The notes below the pieces were generated by a model. That model made no database searches, was not told where the DNA came from, and worked only from the letters and a program-made list of their open reading frames with translations. The position numbers were made by a program, and so were the translations under genes. A stretch of 45,052 nt of DNA from positions 1 to 45,052 of the IMG/VR virus record IMGVR_UViG_3300047320_000101; one strand, written 5' to 3'. The stretch comes from a virus. This document shows, piece after piece, positions 2,997-45,000 of this stretch (position 1 is its first letter; each line of letters opens with the position of its first letter).

Positions 2997-3089
2997 AAAG
3001 CGGGATTCCCGGACGCATTGAAGTGCCATATTAGCCGCTTAGACTACTGGTGGCCCTTGCACCTATGTCGCACCCGGACCGCGCCAATC

Positions 3090-3183
3090 CCTGTGGGAGC
3101 GAGCTTGCTCGCGATGGCGTCAGGTCAGTCAACATTGATTTCGACTGTCATGCCCTCATCGCGAGCAATCTCGCTCCCACAGG
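3090..3183. repeat. second REP doublet (REPIN)
   Basis: Two inverted copies of the common P. fluorescens-group REP sequence (it begins CTGTGGGAGCGAGCTTGCTC) lie at 3090-3116 and 3157-3183 with one mismatch. They are of a different REP subfamily from positions 1-106. The doublet is in the gap between the antiporter gene and the prophage. Confidence 0.9.
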
Positions 3184-3428
3184 TTTTGCGTTTTAACTGA
3201 AAGGCCATGGCATAATCCGACACCTTTTTTATCCAGCACCTGCAAAGGGGGCAATTCATTGACCGTTTCAAGCAAAACGTTGCACCTTTTCGGCATCAAA
3301 GCCTGGGATGCCGCATAAAAATCAAGCAAGGTCTTTATAATCAAGGCCTTGAGCTACAAAACAGCCACAAAAAGCGGTGTCTTTTACGACGTTTTAGAAC
3401 TCAATAAACATTGGTCCAAACGGTTGCA
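3184..3428. other. gene-free host DNA next to the prophage
   Basis: About 245 bp of AT-richer chromosomal DNA between the REP doublet and attL. I see no convincing gene, no tRNA and no tmRNA end. The short open frames lack ribosome binding sites and look random. Whatever locus the phage inserted into continues beyond position 45052, so the disrupted host sequence cannot be named here. Confidence 0.6.
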
Positions 3429-3497: not shown

Positions 3498-4112
3498 TTA
3501 TATAGGCAACACTTTCAATGCACGCTCATAAATAGCCAGCCGATCGGTCTGGCCATTCAAGCCACCATTTACCTTCCGGGTGATCGCTTCGAACCTTCCG
3601 GCATCCGCTAGTTCGCTGAGGCCATTGCTCGACCAGAACCAGGCGGCAGACAGCGAGGCATAGACCGGCTGCTCCAGCAATTCAGGATTGGTCAGCAGGT
3701 CTAGGTTCAGGGCCGATCCGCACGCCTGGTAGTTGACCCAGCCCGTCACTTGAATCAGCCCCCTTCCCCGGTACCGCCAGCCGTCACCGGTCACCGCAGG
3801 CCCATTACCCAGGCGCGAGGCGTAAACGATGTTCGCGATCTGCTCGGGCTTGCGGGCGCAGCTGGTCGCCGTCATCAGGTTGAACCGCTTAGGCCAAGTC
3901 CTGATCAACCCCTCGGCGCTGTAGTTCAGGTTCTCGACCAGGGTGCGCAGTTGGCCGGACTCATGCCCGACCTGCGCCAGAAATGCGGCCGCGCGCAGAC
4001 GGCCTTCAATCTTGAAGCGCGCCATCGCGTCATTCAGCGCGGACACAAAAACGCCGGCAACTGGGCCGGCGTTCGGGAGGATCCGCAGCAACTGCTGCGA
4101 TGTGATTGTCAT
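3498..4112 (-). CDS. GH19 endolysin (chitinase-like lysozyme)
   Basis: A 204-residue single-domain glycoside hydrolase family 19 protein, the commonest endolysin type in Pseudomonas siphophages. It should cut the glycan backbone of peptidoglycan at the end of infection. Residues 40-70 hold the GH19 core, with the likely catalytic acids E51 in GHESG and E60 before NLNYSAEGL. Further conserved blocks are NRLGNGP-like and GDGWRYRGRGLIQVTG. No signal peptide is seen, so export would depend on a holin, which here lies ~22 kb away at the start of the late operon (25928-26248). It is the last late gene, next to attL, after a terminator at 4128-4151. Its first ~30 codons are duplicated at ~5104-5194. 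Confidence 0.92.
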   Translation of the reverse strand: MTITSQQLLRILPNAGPVAGVFVSALNDAMARFKIEGRLRAAAFLAQVGHESGQLRTLVENLNYSAEGLIRTWPKRFNLMTATSCARKPEQIANIVYASRLGNGPAVTGDGWRYRGRGLIQVTGWVNYQACGSALNLDLLTNPELLEQPVYASLSAAWFWSSNGLSELADAGRFEAITRKVNGGLNGQTDRLAIYERALKVLPI

Positions 4113-4125
4113 TACTTTTCTCCGG
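4046..4125 (-). repeat. direct repeat copy 1 (endolysin start and RBS)
   Basis: About 80 bp covering the first ~22 endolysin codons and the ribosome binding site (AGAAAAGTAATG region) is repeated, with roughly 85% identity by eye, at 5128-5205. The two copies are in the same orientation and flank the two-gene cargo 4285-4904. Confidence 0.85.
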
Positions 4126-4127
4126 AC

Positions 4128-4151
4128 AAAAAAACACCCGCACTAGGCGGG
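4128..4151 (-). terminator. intrinsic terminator after the cargo pair
   Basis: On the minus strand, GCCCGC-CTAGT-GCGGGT is followed by a run of seven T. It closes the cargo transcript and lies just upstream of the endolysin start. It belongs to the shared CCCGCC-NN-GTGCGGG set also found at 15044, 16806 and 35288. Confidence 0.85.
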
Positions 4152-4284
4152 CTTTCATATATGGCCAAAATGGTCGACGTTTTCGGTTTTGCAGCCCATA
4201 CCTATCAAAGGGTCGGGCTAAAATTCTATCCCTGAAGGGACGCTAAGAAGCCACTTAAAGTTAACAACACCCAAACAAAAGAAC

Positions 4285-4596
4285 TTAAAATTCATGATCC
4301 GGCAACTTTACACTATTTTCCCTGTTTTTAGGATCGGTAATGCCTTCGAAAATAAACTTCACCATTCCCTTGCCAAAATCACCAAACTCATTCTGCATCG
4401 TAGTCAAAAACTGTATGGTGTGTTTAGCCGCACCAACTAAGGCCCATGAACAATTATTAAAGTTGCAGCCTTCCAACAGAATAGGGCCTTCTCCACCGTA
4501 CTCAATTACACAACCATCAAAGGTACAACCTTTATAATGGATATTATCAATGCGAATTTTCCCACCCGTAAATACCGAATCACTAAAATTAATCAT
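4285..4596 (-). CDS. small beta-solenoid-like (pentapeptide-like) cargo protein
   Basis: A 103-residue soluble protein with repeating F/C-rich strand motifs at residues ~3-55 (FTGG.., YKGCTFDGC, LEGCNFNNC). This resembles a short pentapeptide or right-handed beta-solenoid. It is followed by a helical segment (GAAKHTIQFLTTMQNEF). I recognise this as a recurring type of small bacterial protein, but know no function. The start overlaps the stop of the upstream membrane-protein gene as ATGA (4593-4596), so the two are translationally coupled and probably work together. Codon use is AT-rich compared with the tail genes, pointing to lateral gain. Superinfection exclusion or host defence would be typical for cargo here, but that is inference. 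Confidence 0.75.
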   Translation of the reverse strand: MINFSDSVFTGGKIRIDNIHYKGCTFDGCVIEYGGEGPILLEGCNFNNCSWALVGAAKHTIQFLTTMQNEFGDFGKGMVKFIFEGITDPKNRENSVKLPDHEF

Positions 4597-4904
4597 TGAC
4601 CGACCCCAAGATCACCATAAGTATTATTAGACAATCTAGGACTGCTAACGGAGTTCGTTGCAAGCCTTTCAAACGAAGAGTCATTTTTATAATCACTAGG
4701 TGCGTATAAGACCTTATGATTCCAATTAAGCGTCGCAAAAAAAGCAGCTACCAAGGCAGAGGGGAACATCATCAGAAACCAAACATAAATTAATTGAACA
4801 GATGGCTGTAAAAATGGAAGTACCGTAGTAGAGCCAACCTCAACAATTCCTGCAAAAATCGCAATGATTGTAAGAGGATTTTTGATTGTCGCAGATATTG
4901 CCAA
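4593..4904 (-). CDS. small two-helix inner-membrane cargo protein
   Basis: A 103-residue protein with two membrane helices (about residues 10-29 and 37-59). A conserved-looking segment follows, LNWNHKVLYAPSDYKN, and then a polar C-terminal tail of ~35 residues. The 'NHKVLYAPSD' box recurs in small bacterial membrane proteins of unknown function as I remember them. I do not assign a role. It is the first gene of a coupled pair with 4285-4596 (4-bp ATGA overlap) and is AT-rich. It sits between a truncated endolysin start (~5104-5194) and the intact endolysin. The context says moron: a unit carried for the lysogen's benefit rather than for virion assembly. A holin role is possible for two helices next to an endolysin, but the long conserved tail argues against it. 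Confidence 0.75.
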   Translation of the reverse strand: MAISATIKNPLTIIAIFAGIVEVGSTTVLPFLQPSVQLIYVWFLMMFPSALVAAFFATLNWNHKVLYAPSDYKNDSSFERLATNSVSSPRLSNNTYGDLGVGQ

Positions 4905-4993
4905 GACGCCTCCACCCTGCTTTATTTTTCCGACTCAACTCAGCCGACACGATAGGTTCAGCGCGTAAGCATATCAGAAAAACCCGGATTCTC

Positions 4994-5194
4994 TTAGGCA
5001 GCAGCCTCCTCGGGGAAAATGTGGCGGAGCGTGTACAGATCGCCATACGCAGTGCCATGCGGCCTCCTACGAAATGATTGTGTCTCCTCAACAGAGTACC
5101 GGCCCGCGGCTGTGTTTAAGACAGGAGCAAAAACGCCGGCGACGGGGCCGGCGTTCGGGAGGATCTGCAGCAGTTGCTGCGAGGTGATTGGCAT
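4994..5194 (-). pseudogene. truncated endolysin start (N-terminal remnant)
   Basis: The first ~30 residues (MPITSQQLLQILPNAGPVAG then VFAPVLNTAAGRY) match the N-terminus of the intact endolysin at 4112 (MTITSQQLLRILPNAGPVAG then VFVSALNDAMARF). After that the reading frame runs into unrelated sequence and stops at residue 66, with none of the GH19 catalytic core. Its ribosome binding site region is intact, so a 66-residue peptide could still be made. It follows the tail spike gene, where the endolysin normally sits. This fits an ancestral endolysin being cut off when the cargo plus a new endolysin allele was recombined in. Confidence 0.85.
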
Positions 5195-5248
5195 AGTTTC
5201 TCCGGGAGAAAGAAGGCCAGCGTGATTAATGGCGGTACGAGAGAAATT

Positions 5249-5325: not shown

Positions 5326-7566
5326 TTAGTAGTTCTCGATCCGGTCGGTGCCGTCAGCGATCACTGCCGCCGCAGCTGCGTACCGCTTGATGAATGTCTT
5401 GTTGGTGCCCCAGGTTTGAATGGTCGTGTTGTAGGGAATGGCAATACTAGCCGCTGTGAACACCGCTTTCACATCTGCCCACAGGCTGACGTTCGGGACT
5501 ATGTATATCCCGTCGGCGATATGAATCTTCGGCCGACCGGCACCGGATCCCGCGAATGGATAAGATGCGTCCGATAAAAACGCCTCGGGCAATACACCAA
5601 TGAAAGAACAGTCGGCTGTCTTGACGACGGTGTTAGCGATAGTGCTGGTCGACTGCACGAAGCCTTTGTTGTATGCAAAGAAAGTGGGGTCGTTGACAAA
5701 GGTGCAGCCCCTGAAGCTGACAACCTTGTTGTTAAACACCGCGCCATGGTTACGGAACGAACACCCAATAAATCGCTCTTCAGGTGTGCCGCCCGACTGG
5801 ACGGAGGCGCTGTTAACGTTTACGAACGAGACACCTATGTAAGTGTTATAGCCGCTGGTGGCCGATACCTGCGCACCCGTAGCGAAGTTCACTACCACAC
5901 CACCAATAATCTTGATGTCTTTTGGGTTCTGGTCGCCATGGTACGCAATGTATTTACGGCTGTTAACGTCGGTTATGTCGAGCTCATAATTCTCACCATT
6001 ACAGTGGATGATGTTGTTGTTAAGCAAGGTAACATACGGTGCTTTGAAACTAATCGCCTTGGTATAGTCAGTGCGGATTGCGTCATCAAAAACCACGGTA
6101 TTGCGTGAAATAGTCACATCGCAGGATTTGGACACGGAAGACACAGAGATACCAATCGCGCAGCCGCGAAGGTAGTTACCGTCAATCTTGCACCCAACCG
6201 GCGCCGCACCGAACAGGCCCCACTCGACACCAATGTTGAAGCCGTAGCCGCTGTTGTTAACGCATTTAAAGTTGTTGCTGGAACCGACAAAGGCGCTGGA
6301 GCCGCCAGTATTGAACGGGTTGACGACCACGTTATCTTCCAGCGTCGCGCCGGCGATCCACATCTCGATGCCGATGTCACCCGCCGCGTTACGCTGAACC
6401 ATATGGTTGTTGACGAACAGAATATTACGGTCATCGACCGCATTATCCAGACCGGTCCGGCCACGGCAACCGCGATAGCAGTCAAAGAAGCAATTGGACA
6501 CGGTAATATTTTTCGGGGTCACGGCATCAGAGGATGATCCAACGGTCATGGCTTGACCGTTGGTGGTTACCCAACAGTTGTCGATTGTTACATCATGCGT
6601 ACCACCCCGAAGGGCGAAAGGCGTGTTGCTTTCTGCAGGCGAGGTGTGGTTGATGCTTAGATTACGGATATCAAAACCATAGTCACCAATCGAAGTCATT
6701 TCAGCATTACCGCCAGCCGTACCGACCAATTTAATGATCGTTGACCTTCCGCTACCGATCAGATCAACACCGGGCTGCATAGCAAGACCGGTTTGCGTAA
6801 TTGTGTAGGTGCCGTCGGCCAACTTGACGGCGGAGTATCCATTGTTGAATGCGTACAAAAGCGCGGCATTGATGGCTGGCGCCCACTCCCATGTACGGGG
6901 ATCGTTAACGTCCGGCTTGGTTACGATTAGGTCAACGAACTGCTTTTCCCACACACTGATCGCATTAAGCGACAGTATTTGCCCTACAGTCGTTGCCGCC
7001 GTCGTTGGCTTGCGGCGGACATGGCCCATCAACCCAGAGCCGTTGTCGGGGTTAATAATGTCCGCGATAGCCTGACGTAGGGAGTCGTCACCTATCAGCT
7101 TTAATTTTGCTTCGTCCGCTGCCCAATTGGTTGTGGTGAATGGTATGAACGCGCTCTTTGCCCGGTATTCATTACCCAGGTAGGAAACGGTCTTGGTTGT
7201 GCGGTCTAGTAGGATTCCGGCAGCGTACGCGATTGGCGGCTCGTACCCACTGGCGCTCATGAAAGTGTTGAATTGTGTTACGCGGTTGCCTTGGTCTGCG
7301 TCGAACTCAGATTCGTGTCGAGCTTGATCAGCATCAAACTCGGACTCACGCCGAGTCTGGTCGGCGTCAAACTCAGCCTCGCGCCGAACTTGGTCAGCAC
7401 CGTGTTCGCCCTCCATTCCAGCCCACGATTTACGGGGCACGCCCTTGCGATCGGGGTACGAATAGTTCGAGCCGAGCACCAGCAGATCCAAGTTCCGAGC
7501 GTTGTCGGACAAGTCTTTCGGAGAGGTGGAGCCGATCGGATTGCCGGTGTTGTGAGCCATGGGCAT
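5326..7566 (-). CDS. tail spike / tail fibre with beta-helix domain
   Basis: A 746-residue receptor-binding protein. Residues 1-55 are a tail-fibre N-terminus of a recurring type (GSTSPKDLSDNARNLDLLV then YPDRKGVPRKSWAGME) that attaches to the tail. Residues 57-100 are four 11-residue repeats (consensus ADQxRRESEFD) predicted to form a coiled coil. From ~225 to ~600 runs a right-handed parallel beta-helix: a pectate-lyase-like series of N-rich turns (ITVSNCFF, ILFVNNHM, CKIDGNYL). The last ~80 residues are probably a trimerising tip. Tail spikes with this fold often degrade capsule or O-antigen, but no catalytic residues could be assigned. GAGAAA just before the ATG supports the first Met. 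A second Met two codons later is possible. Last virion gene before lysis. Confidence 0.88.
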   Translation of the reverse strand: MPMAHNTGNPIGSTSPKDLSDNARNLDLLVLGSNYSYPDRKGVPRKSWAGMEGEHGADQVRREAEFDADQTRRESEFDADQARHESEFDADQGNRVTQFNTFMSASGYEPPIAYAAGILLDRTTKTVSYLGNEYRAKSAFIPFTTTNWAADEAKLKLIGDDSLRQAIADIINPDNGSGLMGHVRRKPTTAATTVGQILSLNAISVWEKQFVDLIVTKPDVNDPRTWEWAPAINAALLYAFNNGYSAVKLADGTYTITQTGLAMQPGVDLIGSGRSTIIKLVGTAGGNAEMTSIGDYGFDIRNLSINHTSPAESNTPFALRGGTHDVTIDNCWVTTNGQAMTVGSSSDAVTPKNITVSNCFFDCYRGCRGRTGLDNAVDDRNILFVNNHMVQRNAAGDIGIEMWIAGATLEDNVVVNPFNTGGSSAFVGSSNNFKCVNNSGYGFNIGVEWGLFGAAPVGCKIDGNYLRGCAIGISVSSVSKSCDVTISRNTVVFDDAIRTDYTKAISFKAPYVTLLNNNIIHCNGENYELDITDVNSRKYIAYHGDQNPKDIKIIGGVVVNFATGAQVSATSGYNTYIGVSFVNVNSASVQSGGTPEERFIGCSFRNHGAVFNNKVVSFRGCTFVNDPTFFAYNKGFVQSTSTIANTVVKTADCSFIGVLPEAFLSDASYPFAGSGAGRPKIHIADGIYIVPNVSLWADVKAVFTAASIAIPYNTTIQTWGTNKTFIKRYAAAAAVIADGTDRIENY
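7267..7398 (-). repeat. 33-bp tandem repeats encoding 11-residue coiled-coil units
   Basis: Four in-frame units of 33 bp in the tail spike gene encode ADQVRREAEFD, ADQTRRESEFD, ADQARHESEFD and the diverged ADQGNRVTQFN. The 11-residue period fits a right-handed coiled coil. Copy number could change by slippage without shifting frame, altering the length of the stalk. Confidence 0.9.
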
Positions 7567-43673: not shown

Positions 43674-43916
43674 ATGAGCAAAGTCACCCTGGACGAATGG
43701 GCGGCGGCCGAGTTCAAGACGCCACCCAGTCCCAACACCTTACGCAAATGGGCGCGTGAAGGCCGGATCGCACCGGTACCGGTCAAGCACGGGCGCAACT
43801 ACTATGTAGAGTCTGACGCCCACTACCAAGAACCTGACCAGCAGCCCGTCCGGATCGTCGGCGGCAGCCTGATCAGCAGAATAGAGAGAGCACGCAATGG
43901 CGCCCAGGCCGCGTAA
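43674..43916 (+). CDS. xis: excisionase (Xis)
   Basis: An 80-residue excisionase-like protein with a winged-helix / MerR-like HTH: TLDEWAAAEFKTPPSPNTLRKWAREGRIAPVPVKHGRNYYV, then YYVESDAHY. It would bend DNA at the att arm and direct the integrase to excision. It overlaps the int start by 20 bp (43897-43916), the lambda xis-int arrangement. A hairpin (TGCCGC/GCGGCA) with CGGAGC precedes the start. Confidence 0.9.
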   Translation: MSKVTLDEWAAAEFKTPPSPNTLRKWAREGRIAPVPVKHGRNYYVESDAHYQEPDQQPVRIVGGSLISRIERARNGAQAA

Positions 43917-45000
43917 CACCGGGTCAAAGGATCTTCCGCCCAATCTCTACCGCAAGACCGACGCCCGCAACGGCGTCACCTATTACACCTACCGCGACCC
44001 GATCAGTGGTCGCGTGTTCGGTCTGGGCAAGGACAAGGAGGCGGCCATTCGCGAGGCCGTCGCCGCCAACCATGCCGACGCACTCAAGCCAACCCTGACG
44101 GAACGCATCAGCACCCCGGCGCCAGCGCCGGGCAAGCTGTTCTCGGAATGGCTGGTCGAATATCGAGAGCTGTTCGCCGAGCGGAAACTGTCGGCCAGCA
44201 GCAACAAAAACGTGGGCATGCGGATCAACCGCCTTGATGCGGTATTCGGTTCGAAGGGGATCAAGGACATCACGACGATGGATGTGGCCGATTATTTGAC
44301 CGGCATGGCTAAAGAAGGAAAGGCGCAGATGGCCCGGGCGATGCGCTCGCTGTTGCGAGACGTGTTCGTCGAGGCCATGGCCAGGGGATGGGTCGGCGCC
44401 AACCCGGTCGAAGTGACGAAGGCGGCGCGTGTGAGCATCAAGCGCGAGCGGCTGACGCTGGAGCTGTGGAACGCAATATACGAAGAAGCAGAGAAGCCGT
44501 GGCTGCGCCGTGCGATGGAACTGGCGGTGCTCACCGGGCAGCGCCGCGACGATATCGCATCGATGCTGTTCAAGGACGTTCACGACGGTTTCCTGCACGT
44601 TGTGCAGTCAAAGACCGGTGCCCGTCTTCGGATCAGTACCGAGATTCGCTTGGAGTCTGTCGGTCTGGACCTCAATCAAGTGATCAAGCAATGCCGCGAT
44701 CGCGTTCTGTCACAACACCTGGTGCATCATGCCCAGGCACCGGGGCGGGCTAAGGCTGGCCAGCCGGTGGTGCTGGACACCTTGAGCTCTGCGTTTGCGG
44801 AAGCTCGCGACAAGGCAGGCGTAAAGCTGGGGATAACTTTCGGGCGGCAGCCACCGTCCTTTCATGAACAGCGCTCGCTGGCAGCACGCCTCCATGAGGC
44901 CGAAGGCCGGGATGCGCAGAAACTGCTCGGTCACCGTTCGGCCACCATGACCGACCTGTACCGCGACAGTCGAGGCGCTGAGTGGATCGACGTGGCATAA
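43897..45000 (+). CDS. int: lambda-type tyrosine integrase
   Basis: A 367-residue integrase that matches lambda Int along its whole length. Residues ~1-62 are the arm-binding domain (RNTGSKDLPPNLYRKTDARNGV..., YRDPISGRVFGLGKDKEAAIREA). Residues ~80-175 bind the core. The catalytic set is complete: R216 (TGQRRDD), K239 (SKTG), H323 and R326 (FHEQRSL), H346 (LGHRS) and Y355 (DLYRDSRG). It integrates and, with Xis, excises the phage at the 16-bp core. The stop is 35 bp from attR, and the arm sites are not identified. The strand and place at the end of the early-left operon are as in lambda. Confidence 0.96.
   Translation: MAPRPRNTGSKDLPPNLYRKTDARNGVTYYTYRDPISGRVFGLGKDKEAAIREAVAANHADALKPTLTERISTPAPAPGKLFSEWLVEYRELFAERKLSASSNKNVGMRINRLDAVFGSKGIKDITTMDVADYLTGMAKEGKAQMARAMRSLLRDVFVEAMARGWVGANPVEVTKAARVSIKRERLTLELWNAIYEEAEKPWLRRAMELAVLTGQRRDDIASMLFKDVHDGFLHVVQSKTGARLRISTEIRLESVGLDLNQVIKQCRDRVLSQHLVHHAQAPGRAKAGQPVVLDTLSSAFAEARDKAGVKLGITFGRQPPSFHEQRSLAARLHEAEGRDAQKLLGHRSATMTDLYRDSRGAEWIDVA

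Follow-up and report, generated by a model that had tools for sequence, protein, structure and literature searches.

A linked membrane-protein and beta-solenoid gene pair from a prophage cargo slot, with a possible role in superinfection exclusion

SNIPE, a nuclease anchored in the membrane, cleaves phage DNA as it is injected (PMC13190303), and P22 SieA and HK97 gp15 provide a precedent for superinfection exclusion (PMC10883804). The two-gene cassette analyzed here, which encodes a two-helix membrane protein and a putative beta-solenoid partner, would resemble SNIPE in its plan of an N-terminal membrane anchor with a cytoplasmic DNA-acting arm, a plan shared by long sister proteins that carry a nuclease-fold domain. 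SNIPE itself, however, is one polypeptide, usually with one helix, that joins DUF4041 to GIY-YIG, whereas our pair comprises two polypeptides and no nuclease, and its sister proteins are PD-(D/E)XK-like. Neither DUF4041 nor GIY-YIG was matched by the pair in Pfam. Compared by description, HK97 gp15 and P22 SieA are also small prophage-encoded inner-membrane proteins, some of them morons, but they are single genes without a solenoid partner.

Phage genomes contain thousands of small moron genes without a function. By describing this previously unnamed pair, we turn two hypothetical moron genes into one testable unit, available in sequenced E. coli prophages, and point to a wider group of membrane-platform proteins missed by annotation libraries. 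The cassette moves as a unit between prophages of unrelated bacteria, usually beside lysis genes, and would most likely help a dormant virus shield its host from other viruses.

A recurrent cargo slot before the endolysin

The window, i.e., the whole stretch of DNA analyzed, corresponds to the 45,052-base virus record IMGVR_UViG_3300047320_000101. It reads as a prophage, with an integrase-like ORF at 43897-45000, tail genes on the minus strand, and a bacterial-looking left end carrying aminotransferase- and antiporter-like ORFs (both ends judged by eye). The endolysin is the final phage gene ahead of this left-end DNA. An imperfect inverted repeat resembling a Pseudomonas REP element lies at 3085-3188, in the putative host flank by the prophage end. 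The pair resides between the tail spike and the endolysin, which are 1,213 bp apart. The features of this region, all on the minus strand, are:

3498-4112, minus: intact GH19-type endolysin, 204 aa (PF00182, E 6e-10; phrog_181 endolysin, E 2e-87)
4046-4112, minus: downstream copy of a 67-bp repeat, corresponding to the first codons of the intact endolysin (DNA comparison)
4050-4073, minus: terminator-like hairpin within the gene of the intact endolysin, on the downstream side of the cargo, a copy of that at 5132-5155 (covariation and folding energy)
4136-4152, minus: hairpin of the endolysin leader, resembling an intrinsic terminator and lying between the cargo and the endolysin (recurs in relatives)
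4285-4596, minus: beta-solenoid partner protein, 103 aa (phrog_26297, E 1.6e-27)
4593-4904, minus: two-helix inner-membrane protein, 103 aa (relatives at 43-86% identity; phrog_26238, E 3e-28)
4968-4976, minus: extended -10-like motif TGATATGCT, 72 nt upstream of the membrane gene (motif scan; weak for the window alone)
5087-5194, minus: truncated start (about 36 codons) from a second endolysin allele (protein-level similarity over 5087-5188)
5128-5194, minus: 67-bp repeat, upstream copy, with 90% identity to 4046-4112 (DNA comparison)
5132-5155, minus: terminator-like hairpin (AACGCCGGC..GCCGGCGTT, then a T run) that the endolysin fragment retains, upstream of the cargo (repeat copy)
5326-7566, minus: tail fibre/spike protein, on the upstream side of the cargo slot (E 3e-12 for Phrog tail matches)

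A first-pass annotation of this region had proposed that a truncated endolysin start lies upstream of the cargo, with direct repeats of about 80 bp at both joints. The truncated start was recovered both as protein similarity (5087-5188) and as a DNA repeat (4046-4112 and 5128-5194), which is ungapped over 67 nt at 90% identity and extends weakly into the leaders. The repeats are thus those of a duplicated endolysin start, but they span about 67 bp and represent a single gene-start sequence present twice, rather than two separate junction repeats. Beyond this stretch, identity between the fragment and the intact endolysin falls to 36%, suggesting that the fragment derives from a different endolysin allele or is a decayed copy. 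Such a drop after 67 bp of 90% identity fits the proposed scar of recombination at the endolysin start, but the order of events cannot be read from it.

The annotation had also recommended a comparison with related prophages, which we drew from 80 endolysin relatives. Relatives have a single endolysin start, and in L109, L113, and L116 the slot is empty, with the tail gene ending 60 bp or less ahead of the endolysin; on this comparison, the duplication in the window is real and not a chance similarity. Unrelated ORFs occupy the same position in L110, L115, and L117. With the slot empty in some relatives and differently filled in others, the site before the endolysin is a recurrent cargo slot in related Pseudomonas-type prophages.

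The alternative cargoes are varied. L110 (1818-3902) carries an endolysin-like fragment (2676-2879) amid two related-looking minus-strand ORFs of 273 and 307 aa, for which no family match was found. The cargo of L115 (2460-3770) is an AlgX/SGNH-hydrolase-like protein, and that of L117 (3055-3909) is a 284-aa protein with a possible lipoprotein signal.

The cargo had further been thought to end in its own terminator, a view that we abandoned. The hairpin at 4136-4152 belongs to the endolysin leader: a similar hairpin stands just before the endolysin ribosome-binding site in most relatives, those with no cargo at this site included (it was seen, with or without cargo, in L109-L113, L115, L116, L118, L120, L128, and L174). 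A further hairpin is found inside the endolysin gene, where a GC-rich stem at codons ~9 to 20 is followed by a T run, and it was seen at the endolysin starts of L109-L174. Across 25 distinct sequences, this stem showed 15 paired double-changed cells, compared with 7.3 ± 1.6 after shuffling and at most 3 with slid partners, and its mean folding energy was -14.9, compared with -9.8 ± 0.6 in synonymous recodings. It is possibly an attenuator of lysis-gene expression; our literature search found no paper on an intragenic terminator in endolysin genes. Two copies of this hairpin bracket the cargo, and the element explains why just that stretch is so similar in both copies. It may also have been the site of exchange.

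The two proteins and their relatives

The membrane and solenoid ORFs, described earlier as coupled by ATGA, are both present at 4593-4904 and 4285-4596, and the ATGA constitutes a 4-nt overlap between them. As had been remarked, the pair is AT-rich: its G+C content is 38.7%, compared with 58% overall, the lowest among the 620-bp stretches sampled in the window. The membrane gene starts with TTG, with GGAGG upstream; TTG is also used in L012, and ATG in L011. Two hydrophobic segments (residues 11-29 and 38-56) agree with the proposed two-helix membrane protein, and conservation is concentrated in N9-P10-L11, the invariant glutamate E22 inside helix 1, H63, and LYAPSD. The inter-helix loop is uncharged and positive residues lie at the outer ends, so that by the positive-inside rule both ends of the protein are predicted to be cytoplasmic. 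The solenoid protein, in which no signal peptide was seen, and the nuclease-fold domain of the sister proteins would then also be cytoplasmic.

The second protein, suspected from the outset to be beta-solenoid-like, was modeled with high confidence (pLDDT 91.5) as a short beta-solenoid of nine short strands, in about three coils, followed by two to three helices. It is acidic (pI 5.2) and scored 15.4 bits against PF13576, whose gathering score is 27. The closest PDB matches of the model were pentapeptide-repeat proteins and the SV2 luminal domain, with modest scores; HalA was among them and was not better. We took the Foldseek matches to the human SV2 luminal domain as a common pentapeptide-like fold and nothing more.

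Searches of Pfam, PADLOC, and NCBIfam with the membrane protein returned nothing, as did PDB sequence searches with the membrane profile, and a DNA search of the cargo against phage records found no relative. Pfam, NCBIfam, PHROGs, and PADLOC record no function for the pair. PHROG 26238 and 26297, in which relatives of the two proteins are found, are listed as of unknown function and are not described as a pair; PHROG 26238 is represented by a long form (303 positions).

A profile search with the membrane domain retrieved 65 viral loci, which, together with loci from other searches, yielded 85 ORFs with this domain (a few contigs are counted twice). In a count that may be biased by the membrane-based search, the solenoid gene directly followed the membrane gene in 37 of the 38 short ORFs (27 distinct short-form sequences), with an overlap of -3, 0, -9, or +1, and it was present in none of the 47 loci of long forms. 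The single exception is L079 (3992-6519), in which the pair is split by about 1.9 kb with IS1-like ends. The search for a conserved pair that had been called for thus shows the two genes recurring, in the same order and with the overlap, in phages of very different context, and homologues of the membrane gene are linked rather than scattered.

The solenoid side was searched as well. Its profile matched three paired loci and two weak ones among the viral contigs, and gave matches in 5/391 and 5/369 sampled whole genomes; in the fetched loci examined, no membrane-domain match was found near the chromosomal solenoids. These stand-alone relatives (L014-L017 and L191-L193) are 102-148 aa long. The idea that the solenoid gene always accompanies the membrane gene was therefore rejected. 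Near-complete linkage on one side and unpaired chromosomal solenoids on the other suggest that the membrane gene needs the solenoid, and that the solenoid family is wider than the pair. Distances among the membrane proteins correlate with those among the solenoid proteins (Mantel r 0.81, n 27, p 2e-4), a correlation that partly reflects shared phage ancestry and counts as support, not as proof. Purifying selection acts on both genes: for the window compared with L011, dN is ~4 to 11% of dS.

Most copies of the pair reside between lysis genes and terminase, a region known as a moron site (lambda bor); many enterobacterial-type copies follow the holin, endolysin, and spanin genes and precede HNH or terminase genes. 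Other copies are far from lysis genes, beside methylase genes (L035 and L040) or in other surroundings (L011 and L012). A DNA search gave a match in 38 of 5,426 complete E. coli genomes, with at least 80% covered in 35. We opened two of these regions; in both, a prophage carries the pair at the lysis-terminase position, and the two genes are annotated as hypothetical proteins. Carriers include prophages of Pseudomonas-type hosts and of E. coli, and a phage recorded from Elizabethkingia. In placement and composition the pair resembles a moron: it is absent from close relatives, atypical in G+C, and inserted amid conserved phage genes. The original suggestion of a cargo cassette is upheld by its recurrence in differing contexts and by relatives in which the slot is empty or otherwise filled, as expected of a horizontally moving two-gene cargo. 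Our analysis establishes a mobile, constrained two-gene unit whose membrane domain is common to nuclease-fold proteins.

In these nuclease-fold proteins, the same membrane domain heads a longer polypeptide. In the long-form model, two long helices (11-32 and 35-62) are joined to a C-terminal domain by a linker of low prediction quality. This domain has a PD-(D/E)XK-type nuclease fold, and PD-(D/E)XK nucleases make up most of its PDB matches (e.g., Can2, Card1, AF1548, and EndoMS; best Z 8.9 over 114 residues). Six C-terminal parts showed no significant Pfam match, and PADLOC and NCBIfam scans of long forms gave scattered weak matches only. Conserved D and E-x-K residues are found in most long forms, but not all. 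The E-x-K residues are missing in L003/L075 (F116), L048, L070, and L078, and such proteins are probably inactive as nucleases. In L007 (5989-6708), the membrane domain is fused to a different C-terminal region without a nuclease motif.

The genomic positions of the long forms also vary. In L053 (3297-4990), L060 (3301-4939), and L089 (3292-5083), the long-form gene follows a repressor-like gene on the same strand and begins 29-40 bp downstream of it; both repressor-like genes tested (L053 and L089) matched Peptidase_S24. We take this to be the place of lambda rexAB, which follows cI. Other long forms are located near terminase genes or in bacterial chromosomes.

Expression and possible functions of the cassette

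A consensus search found no promoter in the window. Across the loci, extended -10-like motifs within 120 bp upstream of the membrane gene were present in 12 of 21, compared with 2.8 expected by shuffling, a count that related loci inflate; these include TGCTATGAT at -65 in L011 and the near-perfect TGATATAAT and TGATATACT. In many enterobacterial copies (L041-L051, L055, L059, L061, L063, L064, and L088), the ribosome-binding site is covered by a hairpin whose 5' arm directly follows the extended -10 motif; an SD-sequestering hairpin is absent in the window, L011, L012, L054, and L057. Transcripts from the extended -10 promoter would start inside or past the 5' arm, and late read-through would carry the full hairpin. 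The T4 lysozyme gene is regulated by the same hairpin-over-ribosome-binding-site logic. Either the ribosome-binding-site hairpin (enterobacterial copies) or the upstream terminator-like hairpin (window) would separate the cassette from late transcription.

Our best guess, which we hold tentatively and at somewhat below even confidence, is that the pair is a lysogenic-conversion cassette (moron) encoding a two-subunit inner-membrane complex that acts against other phages, likeliest at DNA entry. The membrane plan, the SNIPE precedent, a placement like that of morons, and the rex-like position that some long forms occupy make superinfection exclusion plausible. The first protein is predicted to form a two-helix hairpin with both ends cytoplasmic and a tail of ~20 residues; the second would be a cytoplasmic beta-solenoid, made by translational coupling from the same message, which may bind this tail and supply a recognition surface. 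The nuclease-fold domain carried by the sister proteins leads us to read the membrane domain as a common platform, presumably at the phage DNA entry point, with an exchangeable cytoplasmic arm. The cassette would have entered the slot before the endolysin, where the flanking hairpin-bearing endolysin starts may insulate its transcription from the late operon. From these data, we infer how the membrane protein is oriented, that the two proteins form a complex, that they are expressed in the lysogen, and that they act against phages.

A broader version, possible but on balance doubtful, is that the two-helix domain is the platform of an undescribed prophage exclusion group, in which the domain either carries a nuclease-fold arm or recruits the solenoid, which would hold off entering DNA uncut, with late-region copies silenced in lytic growth by terminators or the ribosome-binding-site hairpin. 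The many long forms without E-x-K, such as F116, argue against a nuclease role as a general one. Against exclusion more broadly stands the lack of a defence annotation (PADLOC and Pfam gave nothing usable), and the site by the lysis genes would also suit a role in lysis. In the latter case, to which we assign a low probability, the pair would modulate lysis through a component akin to a holin or antiholin that the solenoid tunes; most copies lie directly past holin, endolysin, and spanin genes, and two helices suit a holin-like protein. Those loci already contain holins, however, the lysis-terminase interval is a moron site in its own right, the L011, L012, L035, and L040 copies are far from lysis genes, and long forms occur near repressor or terminase genes and in chromosomes. 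No holin family was matched in Pfam or NCBIfam, and the PHROG family that was matched is one of unknown function.

Other readings give the solenoid a controlling role. An abortive guard, in which the two-helix protein disrupts the membrane and the solenoid acts as a sensor or gate that holds it shut before infection, on the model of Hailong HalA or Panoptes 2TM-beta, is unlikely in our view, yet more probable than a lysis modulator. The Panoptes 2TM protein can kill through inner-membrane collapse (PMC12657230), the glutamate inside helix 1 is invariant, and the HalA model gives weak matches to solenoid members (best E 3.8e-7). HalA with oligodeoxyadenylate (9nyi) aligns to the solenoid over 52 residues at 1.8 Å (Z 2.6), but other pentapeptide proteins align equally well or better, MfpA among them; the HalA model also matches many pentapeptide-like proteins (33/229 genomes), no nucleotidyltransferase gene adjoins the pair in the window, and nuclease-fold domains on the same membrane domain need no pore. 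Less probable than the guard, and ranking just ahead of the lysis role, is a toxin-antitoxin or addiction pair, in which the solenoid would neutralize a toxic small membrane protein. A small hydrophobic protein with a soluble partner, overlapping genes, and near-obligate linkage would suit such a pair, but here the membrane gene comes first, contrary to the usual order, the solenoid also occurs alone, and long proteins carry the membrane domain without it. We give least credence to a host-fitness factor apart from phage competition, e.g., a DNA mimic tethered to the membrane that would act on topoisomerases in the manner of MfpA and Qnr. The solenoid is acidic and resembles pentapeptide-repeat DNA mimics (MfpA: Z 5.3, 53 residues, 2.1 Å), but its roughly three coils make it far shorter than MfpA or Qnr.

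Comparison with solenoid and two-helix membrane systems

Beyond the exclusion systems described above, the pair can be compared with other known proteins. MfpA, AlbG, and Qnr have a right-handed four-sided beta-solenoid fold with Cys/Phe repeats, which the window solenoid would share; they are longer than the window solenoid, without a membrane partner and without C-terminal helices of its kind. Our literature search found no paper on a pentapeptide exclusion protein.

HalA of Hailong is a membrane protein whose pentapeptide-like solenoid region resembles the partner protein. It is, however, one polypeptide that acts with the HalB nucleotidyltransferase, whereas the neighbours of our pair are an endolysin and a tail protein. 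The solenoid scored 24.8 bits against the HalA NCBIfam model, whose curated cut-off is 250 bits, and no hit in the PDB sequence searches was significant. Since the HalA model matches so many pentapeptide-like proteins, we ruled out HalA homology as specific evidence.

Finally, Panoptes 2TM-beta and CBASS Cap15 have two N-terminal membrane helices and a cytoplasmic beta domain, a plan that the cassette is predicted to share. In these systems the beta domain is a barrel within a single, nucleotide-controlled polypeptide whose partner is mCpol or a cyclase, whereas the second protein of our pair is separately encoded and modeled as a solenoid.
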